Shown: one piece after another, positions 1 to 6,183 of the stretch
Layout: every line of letters starts with the position of its first letter
How positions within the stretch are numbered: position 1 is the first letter of the stretch
Source of the DNA: Bacteroidales bacterium
GTDB taxonomy: Bacteria > Bacteroidota > Bacteroidia > Bacteroidales > F082
Direction: 5' to 3'
Assembly: GCA_017428285.1 (NCBI GenBank)
Contig: JAFRRE010000090.1
Coordinates: forward strand, 1 to 6,183
Length of the DNA stretch: 6,183 bases
Notes under the pieces: model-generated
The model's database searches: none
What the model saw: the letters and a program-made list of their open reading frames with translations, nothing else
What the model was told of the DNA's origin: nothing
Made by a program: the position numbers and the translations under genes

Positions 1-258
1 GTTGTGCATTTGTTTCAAGGTACTCACATAGCCTTCACCACCCAAACGGAAATGATTGCCAAGATGATAACGGAGCACTCCGCCGAGGCCGAAGGTCATT
101 CCTTCCGCTTTATGGTTTAAGGCGGATAAGTCGCCATGCAGATAACCCGTGTGTACCATCATGCCACCGTCGAAACGCTGGTGGTTTTGGGCTTGGTTTT
201 GTGAGAACGGGATGATGATCAACAGAAATAAAACAATATATTTCATCAGTTTTTTCAT
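1..258 (-). CDS. Outer-membrane beta-barrel-like protein, N-terminal 86 residues (runs off left edge)
   Basis: The ATG at 258 overlaps the stop of the upstream methyltransferase gene as ATGA, and GGAAAG precedes it, so translational coupling is likely. Residues 1-24 form a clear Sec signal peptide: MKKLMK, then a hydrophobic stretch (YIVLFLLIIIPF), then SQNQAQ with probable cleavage after QAQ. The mature part (FDGGMMVHTGYLHGD, then FGLGGVLRYHLGNHFRLGGEGYV) has alternating polar and hydrophobic residues, many glycines, and the pattern of a first hairpin of a small outer-membrane beta-barrel of the kind common in Bacteroidota. This suggests a protein exported to the outer membrane. The gene continues beyond base 1, so length and C-terminus are unknown. 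No specific function can be assigned. The barrel assignment is inferred from composition; the signal peptide and the start overlap are seen directly. A second in-frame ATG at 246 is possible but fits less well, because it would remove the positively charged start of the signal peptide. Confidence 0.7.
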   Translation of the reverse strand, partial: MKKLMKYIVLFLLIIIPFSQNQAQNHQRFDGGMMVHTGYLHGDLSALNHKAEGMTFGLGGVLRYHLGNHFRLGGEGYVSTLKQMHN

Positions 259-822
259 TTCTTTCCTTTCAGAATCGCCGATCCGCTCAGTCCCATCCAT
301 TTGGCTTCCCATGGGGTCATAAACATGCCGTTGGTGGTGTCAATGAGTTCAACCTCTGCATAGCCCATGCCTTTCAGTTTCTTGACAAAAGCCTGCATGT
401 CGCCATATTTGAATCGGGAGAAAATGTCATGAATGGCGAAGGTGCCGCCTTTCTTCAACACACGCAGGGTTTCCAACAAAATGGCTACCGCAGCCCACAT
501 CGAGGCCTTTGCTGCCTTCAGGAAGGGTGACATACATGGCAATGCCGTCAATGATCTGTTTCGACATCTGACGCTTGCCGTTGTAGGAGAAGGCACGATG
601 CAACAGCCACATCCATAGTGTCACCAAAGCCAGCACGATGGCAAGCACAAGGAAAACGATTTTCAGGACAGTCTTCAGCGTTCCGGCGGCAAGCAGTCCG
701 CTCACGCCAAAGACCAGGAACAATATCAGGCATGCTACCGCGCCGCCCATAGTCCCAAGGATCATGCCTTTAGGCATCCAGTTTTTGTAGTTGGGTTTCG
801 TTTTCTTTAATGCTGTTTTCAT
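255..822 (-). pseudogene. Membrane-anchored class I SAM-dependent methyltransferase, broken by an internal deletion
   Basis: The protein lies in two frames. From the ATG at 822, one frame gives a basic N-terminus, two hydrophobic segments (about residues 19-46 and 50-74), then SAM motif I, GLDVGCGS (106-113). After that the frame becomes nonsense and stops at 427. The other frame, usable from about 490, supplies the typical methyltransferase C-terminal half: ILLETLRVLKKGGTFAIHD, a later YGDMQAFVKKLKGMGYAEVELID, and the end SGSAILKGKK at 255. The region that normally holds motifs II to IV (SAM-binding acidic loop and the D-x-x-x-S/N-x-x-x-H-type segment) is absent. An internal, frame-changing deletion therefore joins motif I directly to the post-motif-IV helix near 481-491. 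I estimate that 60-75 residues are missing, judging from the usual fold. The product would be inactive. The stop overlaps the next gene's start, so the pair was once an operon. The substrate cannot be told; the N-terminal anchor places it at the inner membrane. Confidence 0.85.
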
Positions 823-831
823 AGGTTTCTT

Positions 832-856
832 TTAGTTGTTTGACACTGCAAAGTAA
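832..856 (-). promoter_or_regulatory. Bacteroidota-type promoter and leader for the methyltransferase/outer-membrane protein pair
   Basis: Read on the minus strand, TTACTTTG (856 to 849) matches the Bacteroidota -7 consensus TAnnTTTG at all fixed positions but one. It is followed by CAGTGTCAAACAACTAA, a transcript start region nearly identical to that in front of the Fic gene at 3632-3655. The methyltransferase ATG lies 26 bases downstream of the -7 element, giving a short leader. A clean -33 TTTG at the usual spacing is not obvious; TTTTTG occurs closer than expected. Confidence 0.5.
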
Positions 857-997
857 TGGCCATTTCAAAAACCGTGAAATCCCAATTGATGGGTAATGTC
901 AAGGGGTCTTATCCCAAGTTTCGATGATGTTTGAAAAAAACGCCGAAAAGGTCAAGAAAACTGTAAGATGAAAATAGTAAGTAACAGCAACTCGATC
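857..997. other. Gene-free stretch with a 32-bp-spaced direct repeat
   Basis: I see no convincing coding sequence here. ATCCCAA occurs at 879-885 and again at 911-917, a spacing of 32 bp or about three helical turns, just upstream of the minus-strand promoter at 849-856. CCCAATTGATGGG at 881-893 can form a short hairpin. These could be binding sites for a regulator of the methyltransferase operon, but two short copies are weak evidence. Confidence 0.25.
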
Positions 998-1138
998 TCA
1001 CGCATAATGATACCGCTCTTTGTGCTTTTTGAGCATAGCAACAGACAAAACCAAGGTGCGCACTGTGAAGATAGTGGGCAGCGTGAAGCGCAGCAGCTTG
1101 CAGTAGCCGAAATGATCTGAGAGGGTGATGGCGGGCAT
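998..1138 (-). pseudogene. MATE-family transporter, N-terminal remnant fused to unrelated sequence (copy 1)
   Basis: From the ATG at 1138 the minus strand reads MPAITLSDHFGYCKLLRFTLPTI. This matches the first 23 residues of the MATE remnant at 3031 with only a few changes; I count about 6 differences in some 66 aligned bases. A four-residue deletion (ATMI in copy 2) then gives PTI-FT, after which the sequence no longer resembles a transporter. The frame closes at 998 after 46 codons, with a tail (VRTLVLSVAMLKKHKERYHYA) that I do not recognise. A MATE protein is normally about 450 residues with 12 membrane helices, so this piece cannot function. It starts only nine bases past the stop of the ATPase gene. 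It may be a decayed duplicate of the 3031 copy or a remnant of a paralogue; the synonymous differences argue against a very recent duplication. Confidence 0.7.
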
Positions 1139-1147
1139 GGTGATTTT

Positions 1148-2593
1148 TTATCTAAACAAATCATCCATCGTTACCTCTGACTGGACAATCCCGCTGTGAA
1201 TATTTCTGGCGACACCATAGGTTGTGATAAAAGTATGAACGACTGCCTTCTTTGTCTTTGTCACTGTGCGGAAAAGTGAAGCCCTGTTTCGTAGTTTCTC
1301 TTCATAGTCAGTAGTTAATGCGTATTTGTCCGTGGCATATTTGACCTCGCAAATATTGATAACTTCATCGGCGCGGTCGATGAGCAAATCTATCTGTCCA
1401 CCTCTCCATGTTGTTCCGTCCTTATCGGTAAACGGCAAGCACAACCATGAGTGAATATTACAGATGATACCGTTGATGCCAAGAGCCGCTTTAATCTGTG
1501 GAATGTGATGGAGACACACCTGCTCAAAGGCATAGCCGCTCCAAGAGGTCGCCTGTCCCTTGCCAGCAAGTTTGCTCCAGAGATGCTCGTCCTGTCCGCT
1601 GTGGTTCTCGACAAACTTGATATAGAAGAGCGAGAACAAGTCCGTCAGTTGATACATTGCATCACGCTCTGTTTTTCCAATGGCGGTATATTTGCGTACG
1701 AAGTCGCACTTGGTCAGGTTATCAAGCACCTCCGTTAAAGTTCCCCCTTCCTGTAGCTTTAGTTCTTTGAGGATTTCCTGCCGTGTTAGCCCTTTCAGCT
1801 TTGTGGCCAGTATGGTGACGACATTTTTGTAAATTTTCGATTCCTTGAAAAGCGATCGAAACAGGAAGTCAAACTCCTCTCGCAGCGGAGCACCCTGCCT
1901 GAAGAACAGGTCGTCGATGCACACATCCAAGGGCGTGTTCTTGGCCAGCATGTCGAGATAATAAGGTATTCCTCCTAATACCATATAAGCTTTGACCAAC
2001 TGATGGCGATTGATTTCAATTCCCTTGACTTCCTTCAGGAATCGTTCCGTTTCAGCGAGACTGAACGGTGCAAGCCTAATGGGGCGGCACACTCGCCCAT
2101 AGATACCACCTTTGTTGCCGATGAACTTCGACAGCATCCATGTAGTAGCAGATCCACACACAAACAGTTTAAGATTCTTTTTTGTAGAAGCCCAATCGTT
2201 CCAGAACTGGCTGAAGGCGGCAAGGAAATTACTCTTTGGCGTGTCCATCCATGGAATCTCATCCAAAAACACGATGGTTTTATCTTTCTGTAGTGTGTTC
2301 AGATAGTCACGTAGTGCGTCGAAAGCCTCAAACCAGTCCTTCGGTCGTTTTACTTTCTTGCCTGAATACCTTTCAAGGTATTTCTTGAACTGTGCCAGAT
2401 GGACCGCCCGCGTCACCTCGAACAACCCTGAAAATGCAAAGTCGAACTTGTTTTCAAATATGCTTTTCACCAAATAAGTCTTTCCCACGCGTCTGCGGCC
2501 ATACACCGCAATGAGTTCTGCTTTGTCGCTGTCAAGATACTCTTTGATGAGTTTTTGCTCATACTCGCGCCCGATGATGTTATATTCGTTCAT
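1148..2593 (-). CDS. AAA+ ATPase with C-terminal DUF234-like, restriction-endonuclease-like domain
   Basis: This 481-residue protein is full length for the bacterial/archaeal 'archaeal ATPase' family (PF01637-like AAA+ with a DUF234/PF03008-like C-terminus). The N-terminal GREYE box (8-12) is followed by Walker A GRRRVGKT (32-39), Walker B IVFLDE (107-112) and a sensor-1-like strand FVCGSAT (144-150). GGIYGR (162-167) could supply an arginine finger. A winged-helix segment lies around 260-300 (GLTRQEILKEL, then LDNLTKCDFVRKY). The last third carries the order E357 (GYAFEQ), D402 (GGQIDLLID), E416-x-K418 (ICEVKYA), the spacing expected of a PD-(D/E)XK nuclease fold. The family's role is poorly defined; members are frequent in accessory regions and are suspected to act on DNA. 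The start at 2593 has no Shine-Dalgarno, which is common in Bacteroidota, and a good promoter lies just upstream. The gene appears monocistronic and intact, with transporter remnants on both sides. Nuclease activity is inferred from motif spacing only. Confidence 0.88.
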   Translation of the reverse strand: MNEYNIIGREYEQKLIKEYLDSDKAELIAVYGRRRVGKTYLVKSIFENKFDFAFSGLFEVTRAVHLAQFKKYLERYSGKKVKRPKDWFEAFDALRDYLNTLQKDKTIVFLDEIPWMDTPKSNFLAAFSQFWNDWASTKKNLKLFVCGSATTWMLSKFIGNKGGIYGRVCRPIRLAPFSLAETERFLKEVKGIEINRHQLVKAYMVLGGIPYYLDMLAKNTPLDVCIDDLFFRQGAPLREEFDFLFRSLFKESKIYKNVVTILATKLKGLTRQEILKELKLQEGGTLTEVLDNLTKCDFVRKYTAIGKTERDAMYQLTDLFSLFYIKFVENHSGQDEHLWSKLAGKGQATSWSGYAFEQVCLHHIPQIKAALGINGIICNIHSWLCLPFTDKDGTTWRGGQIDLLIDRADEVINICEVKYATDKYALTTDYEEKLRNRASLFRTVTKTKKAVVHTFITTYGVARNIHSGIVQSEVTMDDLFR

Positions 2594-2615
2594 TCTCTAT
2601 ACTATTTATTGGGCG

Positions 2616-2623
2616 CAAAGATA
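2616..2623 (-). promoter_or_regulatory. -7 promoter element of the AAA+ ATPase gene
   Basis: On the minus strand TATCTTTG is an exact match to the Bacteroidota -7 consensus TAnnTTTG, followed by CGCCC. It lies 22 bases upstream of the ATG at 2593, so the leader would be very short. The -33 region is only T-rich (TATTTTTC) without a clear TTTG. The repeat block at 2655-2760 sits immediately upstream, where operators or activator sites would be placed. Confidence 0.65.
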
Positions 2624-2654
2624 CAGCTTTTTTGGGAAAAATACATCGATACTT

Positions 2655-2760
2655 ACTCCTTATCTATATCTTTTTACATACTTACGGAGAAATTATCGCT
2701 TATTTCTTCTCCTTAACTATGTATTTTAATCCACTTAAGGAGTCATTATCTTGATAATAG
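2655..2760. repeat. Degenerate 53-bp tandem duplication with alternating inverted CTCCTTA/TTAMGGAG motifs
   Basis: Four short motifs alternate in orientation: CTCCTTA (2656-2662), TTACGGAG (2682-2689), CTCCTTAA (2709-2716) and TTAAGGAG (2735-2742). Their centres are spaced 26, 27 and 26 bp, close to two and a half helical turns. Seen another way, 2655-2707 and 2708-2760 are two diverged copies of a 53-bp unit. The copies share CTCCTTA, CTAT at the same offset, a T-rich middle, CTTAMGGAG and ATTATC. The block fills the region upstream of the ATPase promoter. It looks like an operator or protein-binding array; the second pair also forms an 8-bp perfect inverted repeat with an 18-base gap. Confidence 0.6.
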
Positions 2761-2785
2761 AATCTTTCCTCCACTTCCATAAGGC

Positions 2786-3031
2786 CTATACGCCAAGTGA
2801 GGCCACCAAGGCGCTACCGCCCGTGCCCAACATCGAGCCTACCACACCTACCAGAAAAAGGAACGGCATCATCAGGTTGACGGCGGCAAAGGGCGTTTTG
2901 CCCACGAAGTTGGAGACAAAGACACCGTCCACCACGCTGTAGATGGAGGTGAAGATCATCGTGGCGATGGTGGGCAGCGTGAAGCGCAGCAGCTTGCGAT
3001 AGCCGAAATGGTCGGAGAGGGTGATGGTCAT
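2786..3031 (-). pseudogene. MATE-family multidrug efflux transporter, N-terminal 81 residues only (copy 2)
   Basis: From the ATG at 3031 the product reads as the start of a MATE (multi-antimicrobial extrusion) transporter. It has a cytoplasmic ALDHFGY-like start (TLSDHFGYRKLLRFTLPTI), the first membrane helix with the family's SIYSVVDGVFVSNFVG segment (about residues 29-44), and a second helix with MPFLFLVGVVGSMLGTGGSALVA (about 55-77). The match to the family ends there and a TAG stop follows at 2786, so some 370 residues and ten helices are missing. The ATG follows the stop of the outer membrane factor by 11 bases, consistent with a former efflux operon. An upstream in-frame ATG at 3052 lies inside the preceding gene and gives residues not typical of the family, so 3031 is preferred. 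Intact MATE proteins export cationic drugs using Na+ or H+; this piece cannot. Confidence 0.85.
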
Positions 3032-3042
3032 AACGGTTGGTT

Positions 3043-3504
3043 TTATTGGCACAACGCCTTATAAAGATTGATTTTCCCTTGTTGCAGTTCAAGCCAGTCT
3101 GCGGTCTGTTGCAGCTGTGCGTCGAGCCAGGCACTTTGGGCGATGAGCACCTCCAAATAGCTGGTGTTGGCATACTGCATGGTCAAGCGGCTGTTCTCGT
3201 AGGCTCGTTGGGAGGCTTCCACCTGCTTGGTGCGTGCCTCCTCGCGGGTGCTGCAAGCCCGACAGTCGGCCAGTGCATCACGCACCTCACCACCTGCCAC
3301 GAGCAAGGCCTTCTCGAAGGCAATCTGCGCCTGCTCCTGTCGCGACTGTGCCACTTTCAGGTTGGCTTTCAGTCGCCCTTGGGAGAACAAGGGCTGCGTC
3401 AGCGAGCTGATGGCATTGAGCAGTATCTGATAGGGATTGATGGTCACGCCGTTGTTGGTCCATCCGGCACTCCCGCTGATGCTTACATACTCTTGCAACG
3501 TCAA
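3043..3504 (-). pseudogene. TolC/OprM-type outer membrane efflux factor, C-terminal third only
   Basis: The 153 codons match the C-terminal part of an RND-pump outer membrane factor (NodT/CusC-type). SISGSAGWTNNG (8-19) corresponds to a beta-strand region. SLTQPLFSQGRLKANLKVAQSRQEQAQ (34-60) is the highly characteristic helical-barrel start. A long helix follows (AFEKALLVAGGEVRDALADC), then LTMQYANTSYLEVLIAQSAWLDAQ (107-130) and the typical end INLYKALCQ. Complete members have about 450-480 residues with a lipoprotein signal. Here everything before the strand is missing: homology stops near 3485-3490, where the sequence passes into the promoter-leader DNA described at 3488. The ATG at 3504 is therefore accidental and lies in leader DNA. 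The gene once belonged to an efflux operon with the MATE gene 11 bases downstream. Without the N-terminal half it could not form a channel. Confidence 0.85.
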
Positions 3505-3554
3505 AAACTAATAGTAGTAAGACAAAATAAACTAATAAATGCAGCTGCAATTAT
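3488..3554 (+). repeat. Relic copy of the Fic-gene leader: -7-like element plus two 24-bp repeat units
   Basis: TACTCTTG (3488-3495) is one base off the -7 consensus and is followed by CAACGTCAAAAACTAATA, almost the same as the start of the Fic leader at 3639-3655. Two 24-bp units follow (3507-3530 and 3531-3554), each beginning ACTAAT; the first has the same CAAAATAA end as unit 2 of the main array. No -33 TTTG is found at the right distance, because the upstream side is the outer membrane factor remnant. I read this as a leader that was duplicated and then cut at its left side. Confidence 0.6.
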
Positions 3555-3563
3555 TGGAATTCT

Positions 3564-3596
3564 GCAACAAAAAGCGGAGTGTTTTTGTTGCTTTTT
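3564..3596 (+). terminator. Intrinsic terminator-like hairpin
   Basis: GCAACAAAAA (3564-3573) and TTTTTGTTGC (3582-3591) form a perfect 10-bp stem around the 8-base loop GCGGAGTG, followed directly by TTTTT (3592-3596). The arrangement fits a plus-strand Rho-independent terminator, although the stem is AT-rich. It would end transcripts coming through the relic leader before the real Fic promoter, which starts 12 bases further on. Confidence 0.6.
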
Positions 3597-3607
3597 ATGA
3601 TATGTAT

Positions 3608-3638
3608 TTTGTTGATATAGAAAAATATTTGTACTTTG
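3608..3638 (+). promoter_or_regulatory. Promoter of the AbiEi-Fic gene
   Basis: TTTG at 3608-3611 is placed 19 bp before GTACTTTG (3631-3638), matching the Bacteroidota -33/-7 layout (TTTG, then TAnnTTTG, with about 19-21 bp between). The last four bases of the -7 element are consensus. Transcription would begin near 3641-3646, just before the 24-bp repeats, giving a leader of about 80 bases that consists almost wholly of repeats. Confidence 0.6.
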
Positions 3639-3649
3639 CAGCGTCAAAA

Positions 3650-3727
3650 ACTAATATTAGCAATACAAAATATACTAATGTTAGTAAAGCAAAATAAACT
3701 AATAACAGCGGCGCAAAATATACTAAT
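3650..3727 (+). repeat. Tandem 24-bp repeat array in the 5' leader of the Fic gene
   Basis: Three 24-bp units lie at 3650-3673, 3674-3697 and 3698-3721. The first six bases of a fourth (3722-3727) abut the ATG. Each unit begins ACTAAT and ends CAAAATAT or CAAAATAA. Unit 1 contains the perfect palindrome CTAATATTAG (3651-3660). Unit 2 has ACTAA-TG-TTAGT (3674-3685). Unit 3 keeps only one arm. The units are similar but not identical, as expected for protein-binding sites under selection rather than recent slippage. The position directly after the presumed transcript start suits a repressor operator array. Confidence 0.75.
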
Positions 3728-5236
3728 ATGGCAATAATACAAGAGAAATTGGCTGAGTCTTTGGCAGTGTTGAAGGCATATCAGGAAGCCCATGGGGATA
3801 ATCTGGTGATTCATGGAGCGGATACGCTGGGACGGACACATACAGAACGGTTGGTGAACAGCGGATACCTTCAGATGGTCATGAAGGGATGGTATATCCC
3901 GTCATCGCCAGGGAACGAGGGTGATTCCACGGTGTGGTATGTGTCGTACTGGCATTTCATTACGGCTTATTTGGACAAACGATTCAACGAGGCTTGGTGT
4001 CTGTCGCCAAAGTTGTCACTCTATTTCCACAGCGGTAAGACGGTGATTCCCAAACAATTGATTGTGCGCTGCGAGAACGGAACAAACAACATCCTGCAAC
4101 TGCCTTTCGGGACTTCGCTGGTCGATATCAAGGCAAGCCTTCCGCCAGAGGTGGTACGGGAGCCGCGTTATGGTGTGCGTTTGTATCCCATGGAATATGC
4201 CTTGCTGATGGTAGGGCCTGATTATTATCGTCGTGATGCGTTGGAGGCGAGGACATGTCTGGCCAGTCTGCGGGATATATCGCCGTTAGTATCGGCGGCC
4301 ATTGACGGAGGACACACTACCCGAGCAGGACGCGTGGCAGGGGCACTACGTTCCATCGGCAGGGAGGAGATGGCGGATGAGTTGCTGCGCATGATGCGTC
4401 AGGTGGGACATACGGTGACGGAGGAGAATCCTTTTGAGGAGAATGTGCGCATGAAGACATTTGCGGTGTCGCCATACGTATCGCGCATCCGTCTGATGTG
4501 GATGCAGATGCGTGAGGTGGTGCTGGCGACGTTGAAAGTGAAGCCAATACAGCAAGATGCGGCATCGGTGCTAGAAATGATGGATGCGACGTATGTGAAG
4601 GACAGCTACAACTCCTTGTCGATTGAGGGCTATAAGATTACGGAAGGTCTGCTGGAGCGTGTTCGCAGTGGCAACTGGGATCCTGAGAAAGATGAAGAGG
4701 ATACGGAGCGCAAAAATGCACTGGCTGCCCGAGGTTATTATCAGGCGTATGAACTACTGAAACAAGGCGTGGTTGACTGTTTATCAGGACAAGAACCTGC
4801 TCAGTTGTATGTGAAAAGGCACCAAGAATGGCACTTCCAGTTATTTGAGCCGTGCATACGAGCGGGTATTGTGAAGGCCGCGGATTTGTTGGGGTATCGC
4901 AGGCATCAGGTGTATATCAAGAATTCAATGCATACACCGTTGAATCCAGATGCCGTGTTGGATGCGATGAGTGCTTTGTCGGATTTGATGATGGAAGAGG
5001 AAAATGCGTTGGTGCGTGCGGTTTTAGGGCATTTCTTCTTCGTCTATATCCATCCGTATATGGACGGTAATGGGCGCACGGCGCGTTTTGTGATGAACAG
5101 CCAATTGGTTACGGCGGGCTATTCATGGGTGGTGGTTCCCGTGGAACGCAGACAGGAGTATATGGCGGCATTAGAGCAGGCAAGTGTGGAGGGGAATATT
5201 GAAGGGTTTGTGAGGTTTATAGGGAGGGTGATGTAA
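3728..5236 (+). CDS. AbiEi-like winged-helix / Fic-domain protein (probable AMPylase-type toxin or modifier)
   Basis: The 502-residue protein has two parts. Residues about 1-200 resemble the N-terminus of AbiEi-family antitoxins: a winged-helix start (ADTLGRTHTERLVNSGYLQMVMKGWYIPSSP, 31-61), then a longer alpha/beta region (CLSPKLSLYFHSGKTVIPKQLIVR). The C-terminal half is a Fic domain with a complete catalytic motif HPYMDGNGRTAR (H442, D446, N448, R450, R453) in the family form HxF/Yx(D/E)GNGRxxR. Upstream, S296-L-S-I-E300-G301 fits the (S/T)xxxE(G/N) inhibitory helix, so this is a self-inhibited (class II) Fic protein whose helix precedes the active site. Such enzymes usually transfer AMP from ATP to a hydroxyl side chain of a target protein. 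The target is unknown. The start at 3728 is forced by a stop in frame at 3695, and no Shine-Dalgarno is present. With the DNA-binding-like domain and the repeat array directly upstream, autoregulation is plausible. The gene is intact and alone in its transcription unit. Confidence 0.88.
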   Translation: MAIIQEKLAESLAVLKAYQEAHGDNLVIHGADTLGRTHTERLVNSGYLQMVMKGWYIPSSPGNEGDSTVWYVSYWHFITAYLDKRFNEAWCLSPKLSLYFHSGKTVIPKQLIVRCENGTNNILQLPFGTSLVDIKASLPPEVVREPRYGVRLYPMEYALLMVGPDYYRRDALEARTCLASLRDISPLVSAAIDGGHTTRAGRVAGALRSIGREEMADELLRMMRQVGHTVTEENPFEENVRMKTFAVSPYVSRIRLMWMQMREVVLATLKVKPIQQDAASVLEMMDATYVKDSYNSLSIEGYKITEGLLERVRSGNWDPEKDEEDTERKNALAARGYYQAYELLKQGVVDCLSGQEPAQLYVKRHQEWHFQLFEPCIRAGIVKAADLLGYRRHQVYIKNSMHTPLNPDAVLDAMSALSDLMMEEENALVRAVLGHFFFVYIHPYMDGNGRTARFVMNSQLVTAGYSWVVVPVERRQEYMAALEQASVEGNIEGFVRFIGRVM

Positions 5237-5253
5237 CCAAGACCTTTCAATTC

Positions 5254-5400
5254 TTATATTTTCCCAGTCTGTTGGTATGAATTAAAAATAATAATCAGCC
5301 CATTGACAATCAATATGATAAATCCAATAAACGCATATTTTATAAATATTGTTTTCGGAATCTCGCCCAATTCGTTTTTTTCTATTTTTGCAATTGTGTG
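5254..5400 (-). pseudogene. C-terminal remnant of a small membrane protein
   Basis: The minus strand has 48 open codons ending at TAA (5254-5256), with no start codon and a TAG directly at 5401-5403. The translation is an acidic/basic linker (HTIAKIEKNELGEIPK), then a strongly hydrophobic helix (YAFIGFIILIVNGLIIIF), then a short polar tail (NSYQQTGKI). A single membrane helix with a natural-looking end suggests the tail of a real membrane protein whose front part has been lost. I do not recognise the family. It runs convergently with the Fic gene, with 17 bases between the two stops. Its left neighbour is intact, while at about 5400 it meets the truncated AlbA_2-type gene, so the junction is probably a recombination point. 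AT-rich DNA can look like a membrane helix by chance, hence the modest score. Confidence 0.4.
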
Positions 5401-5403
5401 CTA

Positions 5404-6183
5404 GGCTATGTTGTGGCTTTGGCAAACGAGCATGGAGGGAAAAGAATATGCCCCAAGCGAACGTGGTGCTTGAATACAGAACCAGCCGCAGCCAGATACG
5501 TTACAGCGCACGTGTGGAGTATCGTCTGCCGCTGTTCTTGGCCATCGACAAAATCTGGGAATATATCAATCAACCCGCTTGCAACCCTTTGTTGCACATA
5601 AATGATCTGCCTGCTATTCTTGATTGTCGAGCCTTCAACGAAGAAACCGTCCGTGAGGCAGTAATCAACGCCATGATTCACAGAAGCCTTCAGATTGGTT
5701 CTGACATTTTTATCCGTTTCTATCCCGACATGCTGGAAATCTCAAATCCAGGTGGCTTCCCGTATGGTGTGAATATTGGTAACCTTTTGACGGTCAATAG
5801 TTCGCCTCGCAGTCGTCTAATGGCGGAAGTGATAGAAAAGACAGGTCTGATGGAGCGGAGTGGACAAGGTGTGGATATGATGTGTGCTAATTGTGTGAAA
5901 GAAGGCAAACCATTGCCCGACTATAGTGCTTCTGACGACTACCAAGTCAATTTGCGGTTGTATGGTGTGATTCCCGAGGAGACGTTTTTATCTATTTACA
6001 CATGAAATTATGCGTAATTCAGAAATAAACGACCAACTAAATGCATTTGACTGGGTTACTTTACACCATGTATTGAACGGCAAGGCGGAAGCAGGATTTG
6101 GGGAGAGTCTTGAAAAACTTGAGAAGTTGGGGTTAGTCGATCAAGATTCATATTTTAGGTATGTGCTATCTCCAGCATACGTA
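5404..6183 (+). pseudogene. AlbA_2/Schlafen-type ATP-binding protein, N-terminally truncated and frameshifted (runs off right edge)
   Basis: The translation matches the second half of 'ATP-binding protein with AlbA_2 DNA-binding domain'. These proteins have an N-terminal Schlafen/AlbA_2 domain and a C-terminal GHKL ATPase-like domain (HATPase_c_4). Homology starts near 5404 (GFGKRAWREKNMPQANVVLEYR), where such proteins leave the AlbA_2 domain, so about 200 residues are missing. From the ATG at 5448 one sees LPLFLAIDKIWEYINQP, the N-box-like E70-x-x-x-N74 (REAVINAMIHR), EISNPGGFPYG (97-107), SSPRSRLMAEV and ERSGQGVDMM (136-145). The frame closes at 6003, but the family sequence continues one frame on from 5989 (YLFTHEIMRNSEIN, later AFDWVTLHHVLNGKAEAGFGESLEKLEKLGL, a winged-helix-like end) to the window edge. 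One extra T in the TTTTT run at 5985-5989 explains the shift. GGAGGG at 5434-5439 precedes ATG 5448, so a separate ATPase-domain protein of 185 residues could still be made. Confidence 0.82.
5434..5450 (+). promoter_or_regulatory. Shine-Dalgarno-like site and ATG inside the truncated AlbA_2-type gene
   Basis: GGAGGG (5434-5439) lies eight bases before ATG 5448. It is the best ribosome-binding match in the window, in an organism type that rarely uses one. In the intact family this position is internal coding sequence (KRAWREKNM), so the match may be accidental, but it would allow translation of the remaining domain. Confidence 0.35.

Follow-up and report, generated by a model that had tools for sequence, protein, structure and literature searches.

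A conserved array of direct 23- to 24-bp units before AbiEi-like/Fic fusion genes: a proposed operator for autorepression

What purpose is served by a row of 24-bp repeats that runs up to the start codon of a gene in which an AbiEi-like part is fused to a Fic domain? The question is raised by a contig of a Bacteroidales bacterium (GenBank assembly GCA_017428285.1, contig JAFRRE010000090.1, positions 1 to 6,183), and this whole stretch of 6,183 nucleotides is referred to here as the window. A preliminary description of the window had claimed an array of 24-bp units with ACTAAT starts at 3650-3727, filling the leader from the transcript start to the ATG, and had proposed that the N-terminal winged-helix part of the encoded protein binds it. 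The array itself is present as claimed, with three 24-bp units and a further ACTAAT leading up to the ATG of the fusion gene. The features concerned are as follows.

3650..3673, forward strand: array unit 1, ACTAATATTAGCAATACAAAATAT (coordinates read from the sequence; Tandem Repeats Finder)
3674..3697, forward strand: array unit 2, ACTAATGTTAGTAAAGCAAAATAA (coordinates read from the sequence; Tandem Repeats Finder)
3698..3721, forward strand: array unit 3, ACTAATAACAGCGGCGCAAAATAT (coordinates read from the sequence; Tandem Repeats Finder)
3722..3727, forward strand: start of a fourth unit, ACTAAT, adjoining the ATG at 3728 (read from the sequence)
3507..3536, forward strand: upstream accessory array, a single unit (3507-3530) followed by ACTAAT (3531-3536), with TTGCAACGTCAAAA before it (read from the sequence; a similar upstream array is present in several close relatives)
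3728..5236, forward strand: AbiEi-like/Fic fusion gene, 502 amino acids (profile, alignment and structure models)

Tandem Repeats Finder reported a single array in the window, at 3650-3736 with a period of 24. When periods of 10 to 40 were compared, this array was also the best 54-base self-match of the window, with 41 of 54 positions matching at period 24, a value reached by none of 1,000 first-order random 260-base sequences of local composition (random maximum, 35). The unit and a quarter at 3507-3536 comes in addition to the array described previously. A coding function of the repeats was rejected, as a TAA lies in frame with the fusion gene at 3695-3697.

The array accompanies its gene in several bacterial groups. 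Relatives were collected from genome contigs (best 80 of 318), viral contigs (24 loci, of which 9 cover most of the protein), plasmids (six regions out of 160 records with a match) and whole-genome searches with matches in 19 of 395, 14 of 398, 13 of 385, 32 of 369 and 21 of 344 genomes, these draws overlapping slightly. Removal of 12 frames without an N terminus or start and of duplicates reduced 211 matching frames to 177 distinct leaders. The strongest periodicity between 10 and 40 bp was 23 or 24 bp in 165 of the 177 (24 in 152 and 23 in 13), and in 149 of these 165 the signal exceeded that of at least 99 of 100 shuffled versions; among the controls, a 23- or 24-bp period was found in 4 of 177 in-gene stretches and 11 of 177 random leaders. 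The period was also present in 82 of 87 representatives at 70% identity and 41 of 44 at 60%. Homologues with the same protein and no repeats, named in the preliminary description as contrary evidence, exist and are rare: 12 of 177 leaders had no 23- or 24-bp peak, and most of these showed two units by eye. By eye, no array was visible in L216 and L218 despite the presence of the protein, and L145 has one unit. In some clades the period is 23 bp rather than 24 bp (L084, L086, L087, L128, L136-L141, L157 and L162). On plasmid p5482 of the laboratory strain Bacteroides thetaiotaomicron VPI-5482, gene BT_RS24275 (48% identical) has a two-unit array of the ACGAGTA type, at about 3928-3978 of L124.

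Across these leaders, the direction and spacing of the units are kept while their letters drift by clade. The clade-specific forms include ACTAAT, ACTAAA, ACTGGA, CCTAAA, CCTAGA, GCTAAT, GCGAAT, ACTTGT and ACAAAGT, and the family average, ACTAATAATAGTACAACATAATAA, is asymmetric. A profile built from 79 non-pseudomonadotal arrays was applied to 58 pseudomonadotal arrays, of which 57 fitted better in the direction of the gene than reversed, compared to about 35 of 58 expected with shuffled columns. On the scale of 13 close leaders, the proposal that ACTAAT units recur while the bases between them vary was borne out: positions 1-5 (ACTAA) of the three full units had a pairwise identity of 1.00 and positions 6-15 an average of 0.83. 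For comparison, identity was 0.91 for the whole array, 0.75 for third codon positions and 0.77 for the aligned spacer above the promoter (0.64 ungapped, which is too low). The palindromic cores reported for the window do exist (CTAATATTAG at 3651-3660 and ACTAA-TG-TTAGT at 3674-3685), but they do not hold as the recognition unit because the family unit is asymmetric; the correlation of the family profile with its own reverse complement is at most 0.24, and palindromes were rejected as the binding unit.

The encoded protein divides into three parts, with limits that we set from structure models.

Residues 1-66 of the fusion protein (forward strand): winged helix
Residues 67-245 of the fusion protein (forward strand): second AbiEi/nucleotidyltransferase-like domain
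Residues about 250-502 of the fusion protein (forward strand): Fic domain

Fic proteins carry the motif HPFx(D/E)GNGRxxR, and those of class II have an inhibitory motif, (S/T)xxxE(G/N), before the Fic core. The fusion protein matches PF02661 (E 7.3e-13) and contains HPYMDGNGR from H442, with H442, P443 and D446-R450 invariant among 44 sequences, as well as an inhibitory-type motif, S296-L-S-I-E300-G301, invariant in the same number. Both motifs of class II Fic (Fido) AMP-transferases are in place, and the protein is a putative AMPylating enzyme. The Fic domain also matches the PADLOC SoFic model over residues 284-498, and this one match suggests an anti-phage function; against the NCBIfam SoFic cut-off of 550 bits, the fusion protein scores 29.1, which places it outside that equivalog.

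The AbiEi character of the N-terminal part, as stated in the preliminary description, is upheld by fold but not by Pfam. The families listed for 66 members, up to an E value of 1, included no AbiEi model of Pfam, and searching Pfam and the PDB with the sequence of the N-terminal part yielded no usable match; hence, the assignment is based on fold. Fold searches with the whole protein returned Fic chains, with no AbiEi among the best 50 matches listed in each, and AbiEi matches emerged once the N-terminal part was modelled alone. That model (pLDDT 90.7) has AbiEi 6y8q and Rv2827c 1zel as its best matches, with residues 1-249 matching 6y8q at an E value of 8e-5 by Foldseek, and the AbiEi order of a winged helix followed by the AbiEi second domain is found in the fusion protein. 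No distinct stand-alone family of the N-terminal part was noticed among 119 proteins, which were partly classified and included short or fragmentary ones.

At loci with regular 24-bp arrays, we compared unit distances with 10-residue windows of the protein while controlling for the rest of the protein, in overlapping sets of 49 loci and then 78 representatives, the latter including 36 loci added after the first analysis. Among the 78 representatives, unit positions 9-20 covaried with residues 31-48, the recognition helix, where the eight highest-scoring of 493 windows lie (up to 0.325, against 0.206 for the best Fic window), while positions 1-8 covaried with residues 111-125 and 52-65, which supplied the top 10 (up to 0.433, against 0.277). 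The 49- and 78-locus sets agreed in linking positions 1-8 to residues 105-142 and 51-66 and positions 9-20 to residues 31-48, with every Fic window staying below the highest values for both halves. For positions 1-8, 9-20 and the whole unit, residual correlations in the 78 representatives were 0.23, 0.22 and 0.36 for residues 1-245 versus -0.06, 0.08 and -0.01 for the Fic part. With the unit taken whole in this set, Fic window 294-303 (0.243) tied with the AbiEi-like wing at 53-62 (0.242), and nearest neighbours chosen by the Fic domain were as good predictors of the unit as neighbours chosen by the AbiEi-like part (0.219 versus 0.222). In the 36 later loci, positions 9-20 again pointed to the end of the helix (38-49), with residues 225-238 almost as high, and for positions 1-8 residues 83-95 ranked first, above the wing, which was among the top windows, and the hairpin reached 0.35. 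In the 43 first-round loci, a Fic stretch (272-282) scored close to the recognition helix. Among 43 pseudomonadotal loci, the highest values were those of the hairpin for positions 1-8 (0.33) and of residues 39-48 for positions 9-20 (0.27), but windows within 31-46 reached only 0.17, below the best Fic window (0.21). The winged helix as a whole was negative when compared with the ACTAAT half, positions 1-8, in the 49 loci (partial correlation, -0.03; permutation p 0.67), and the division of labour between the helix on one side and the wing and hairpin on the other was recognised post hoc, from finer windows only, and is moderately supported. With shared ancestry incompletely removed, covariation thus points moderately to the AbiEi-like part, namely the recognition helix, the wing and the second-domain hairpin, and lends moderate support to the proposal that the N-terminal winged-helix part reads the array.

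The arrays are likely placed at promoters, as judged from promoter-like motifs. In the window, a candidate box lies shortly before the array.

3632..3638, forward strand: candidate -7 promoter box, TACTTTG (comparison with relatives; TATCTTTG, TATTTTTG or TATATTTG in 12 close relatives)

We take TACTTTG to be a -7 box of the Bacteroidota type, which would put the transcript start at about 3644-3648; the statement that the array extends from the transcript start stands to the extent that this box predicts it. The box of the window is one base shorter than that of the 12 close relatives, and this may reflect a weakened promoter or a sequencing error. Of 37 Bacteroidota representatives, 17 had a TAnnTTTG box close to the start of the array, compared to 2.1 expected, and in 14 of those 17 the box ended within 8 bases before to 2 bases after that start; the exact box was absent in the other 20, including the window. 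In 47 pseudomonadotal representatives, sigma70-like sites with a score of at least 9 occurred inside 15 arrays (3.0 ± 1.6 expected from locally shuffled sequence), and the best sigma70-like site of the leader fell inside the array in 35 (25.7 ± 3.1 expected), which is the weaker of the two results. Position at or in likely promoters fits an operator over the promoter or first transcribed bases and not an element acting only as RNA.

The array could instead work as RNA, as a 5' leader bound by protein or as an RNA antitoxin of the type III kind, in which tandem RNA repeats precede the toxin gene. This explanation draws on the position of the array downstream of the candidate promoter and at or near the start codon in the window and many Bacteroidota relatives, on its running in the direction of the gene and on a window leader that folds better than its shuffles (z -3.5). 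We think it improbable since folding is not conserved in three relatives (z -1.4, -0.6 and +1.1), so that a tandem-repeat RNA with a conserved fold, as in type III systems, was found in none of the three; since promoters inside pseudomonadotal arrays, more frequent than by chance, would leave the first units there untranscribed; since the AbiEi-like fold is a DNA-binding one; and since the window has no Rfam match.

A close association of the array with the AbiEi-like/Fic fusion gene was observed in two ways. A three-unit ACTAAT pattern, with one mismatch allowed, matched 19 places in 10 of 12 genomes, and 15 of these places, in 9 genomes, were leaders of the fusion gene by coordinates. The other four were three low-complexity CTAATT stretches in one of the 9 genomes (G004) and a lone weak match in G007, where the gene's own array is of the ACTAAA type; the pattern matched nowhere in two pseudomonadotal genomes whose units have different letters, and a backward control pattern matched 20 places in G005 and one in G001. 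The second comparison was with 15 Fic genes that matched at the Fic end only, of which 14, several being near-copies, had a leader of sufficient length. None of these 14 genes without a detected AbiEi-like part had a 23- or 24-bp array above shuffle level, with a best period of 24 at shuffle level (45 and 72 of 100) in two. One Fic gene without a detected AbiEi-like part, L094, has a significant, strong 40-bp repeat in its leader.

It might also be argued that the array is a recombination or insertion site by which the gene moves as a cassette. In several close relatives, DNA similarity to the window starts at about 3481-3505 and stops near the stop codon, there is an extra array at 3507-3536, and the sequence to the left contains a TolC-like gene in truncated form and a second copy of a MatE start. 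The window, however, lacks a second array to the right of the gene, and in 9 of the 12 genomes the pattern found the fusion-gene leader and no matching array elsewhere, save for the low-complexity stretches in one. Such limits of similarity are equally expected from ordinary loss of synteny, and a cassette predicts no covariation with DNA-reading residues; we therefore regard this explanation as very improbable. Equally slight are the chances that the array is an A-rich periodic leader acting in translation or transcription without a dedicated protein, its period due to slippage and short-term duplication, for while leaders are often A-rich and the units of one locus often alike, the 23- to 24-bp period persists across proteins less than 60% identical as the letters change, positions 1-5 are invariant and 6-15 variable in the 13 close leaders, and strong promoter-like sites lie inside the pseudomonadotal arrays.

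We consider it likely that the array is a head-to-tail operator, each unit of which is occupied by the AbiEi-like part of one protein, resulting in autorepression. Each 23- to 24-bp unit would form an asymmetric site for about residues 1-245, in which positions 9-20, the second half, are read by the recognition helix of the winged helix and positions 1-8, the ACTAAT half, by the wing together with a beta-hairpin of the nucleotidyltransferase-like domain. Side by side on the array, several copies of the protein would then cover the core promoter or the earliest transcribed bases and hinder RNA polymerase, and repression of its own gene would keep the self-inhibited Fic AMP-transferase at a low level. 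The computational evidence extends to the array with its conservation, direction and likely promoter position, its close association with the fusion gene, the AbiEi fold and the moderate covariation; binding of the protein, repression, toxicity and the occupancy of one unit by one protein are what we infer, with repression as the presumed sign of regulation taken from AbiEi and CccR; self-repression by array-bound protein is proposed for the fusion protein because AbiEi is autoregulated through 23-bp repeats and CccR is a Fic toxin that represses itself. The further proposal of the preliminary description, that titration or loss of the repressor would raise Fic levels, is speculation.

A self-repressing Fic toxin is already known. 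According to the report on CccR of Yersinia pseudotuberculosis, this class II Fic toxin represses its own gene through a DNA-binding domain in the same chain, at an operator near -35 and -10 (PMC9755527). The likeness lies in self-repression by a Fic protein with an in-chain DNA-binding domain. The same report describes a C-terminal HTH, two 10-bp inverted repeats 26 bp apart and a need for dimerisation (PMC9755527), whereas the fusion protein has an N-terminal, AbiEi-like predicted DNA-binding part and direct 23- to 24-bp units. For AbiEi of Streptococcus agalactiae, the published study describes a monomer, required at full length for autoregulation, that acts at 23-bp sites overlapping the promoter and shares with the fusion protein a winged helix and a second domain resembling nucleotidyltransferases (PMC7319586). 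Repeats of about 23 bp at the gene's own promoter are likewise found here (165 of 177 leaders, with promoter placement being statistical). The AbiEi sites in that study are inverted repeats, two in number (two pairs for Rv2827c) and 3 or 13 bp apart, and in the type IV AbiE system AbiEi acts as an antitoxin separate from its AbiEii toxin (PMC7319586). The units of the present family, in contrast, are direct and contiguous rather than inverted, and the partner is the fused Fic domain; none of the annotated neighbours in the six plasmid records is named AbiEii. The anti-phage protein SoFic is alike in its class II Fic domain, and the word AbiEi does not occur in the paper describing it (PMC12249575). 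In arrangement, the array resembles the iterons of plasmid origins. Iterons are direct repeats that adjoin one another, each spanning about two helical turns; they take part in autoregulation and are recognised by monomeric proteins that carry two DNA-reading domains. Unlike in iteron arrays, the gene behind the present array encodes a Fic fusion and not a replication initiator. In the literature covered, with most subscription journals outside it, neither an AbiEi-Fic fusion nor an array of this kind before a Fic gene came to light.

These loci form a widespread class of candidate operators with a natural specificity code, consisting of dozens of protein-unit pairs whose letters differ at nearly fixed spacing. 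They pose a directly testable question about DNA reading by two domains in AbiEi-type antitoxins and indicate probable self-regulation for a large number of Fic genes. A more far-reaching scheme, which we offer tentatively and hold to be rather doubtful, is that of a one-gene self-repressing toxin in several phyla, in which an AbiEi repressor was fused before Fic, iteron-like direct units co-evolved with a two-part reader and the base-by-base reading of half of each unit falls to a degenerate nucleotidyltransferase fold. Occupancy of the array would then be the sensor, and stripping of the protein, by phage DNA with units, phage DNA-binding proteins or Fic-dependent modification, might release a burst of Fic and arrest the cell.

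In one lineage, the winged helix was apparently lost while Fic was retained. Ten proteins of 393-396 amino acids (P0201-P0206, P0210, P0211, P0213 and P0215) are without the winged helix and resume at about residue 122, and their first residues resemble a translated array unit by our reading of the protein sequences. The existence of this N-truncated lineage suggests that loss of the winged helix is at least survivable. No DNA copy of it was found in 90 genomes, 7 of which had a match, at 8 places; one of these places, L229, has an open frame of 382 amino acids with 48% identity.

Some observations concern the surroundings of the fusion gene in the window, which contain an ATPase gene.

1148-2593, reverse strand: ATPase gene, PADLOC PDC-S27, beside the truncated TolC-like gene

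This ATPase gene is flanked by two copies of the DNA of the MatE gene start, at 1065-1131 and 2961-3027, which are 90% alike; the MatE duplication and the truncated TolC-like gene look like remnants of insertion. Upstream of the ATPase gene, at 2594-2770, TAAGGAG/CTCCTTA motifs seem, by eye, to recur in opposite directions and are possibly its operator; the repeat finder gave a different pair in that region, 2638-2651/2714-2727. Finally, a comparison of L001 with window positions 3493-6183 showed 98-100% identity at 5393-6183, about 87% over the Fic module and, upstream of the module, almost no similarity apart from one 40-base match, a pattern suggesting exchange of the Fic module.
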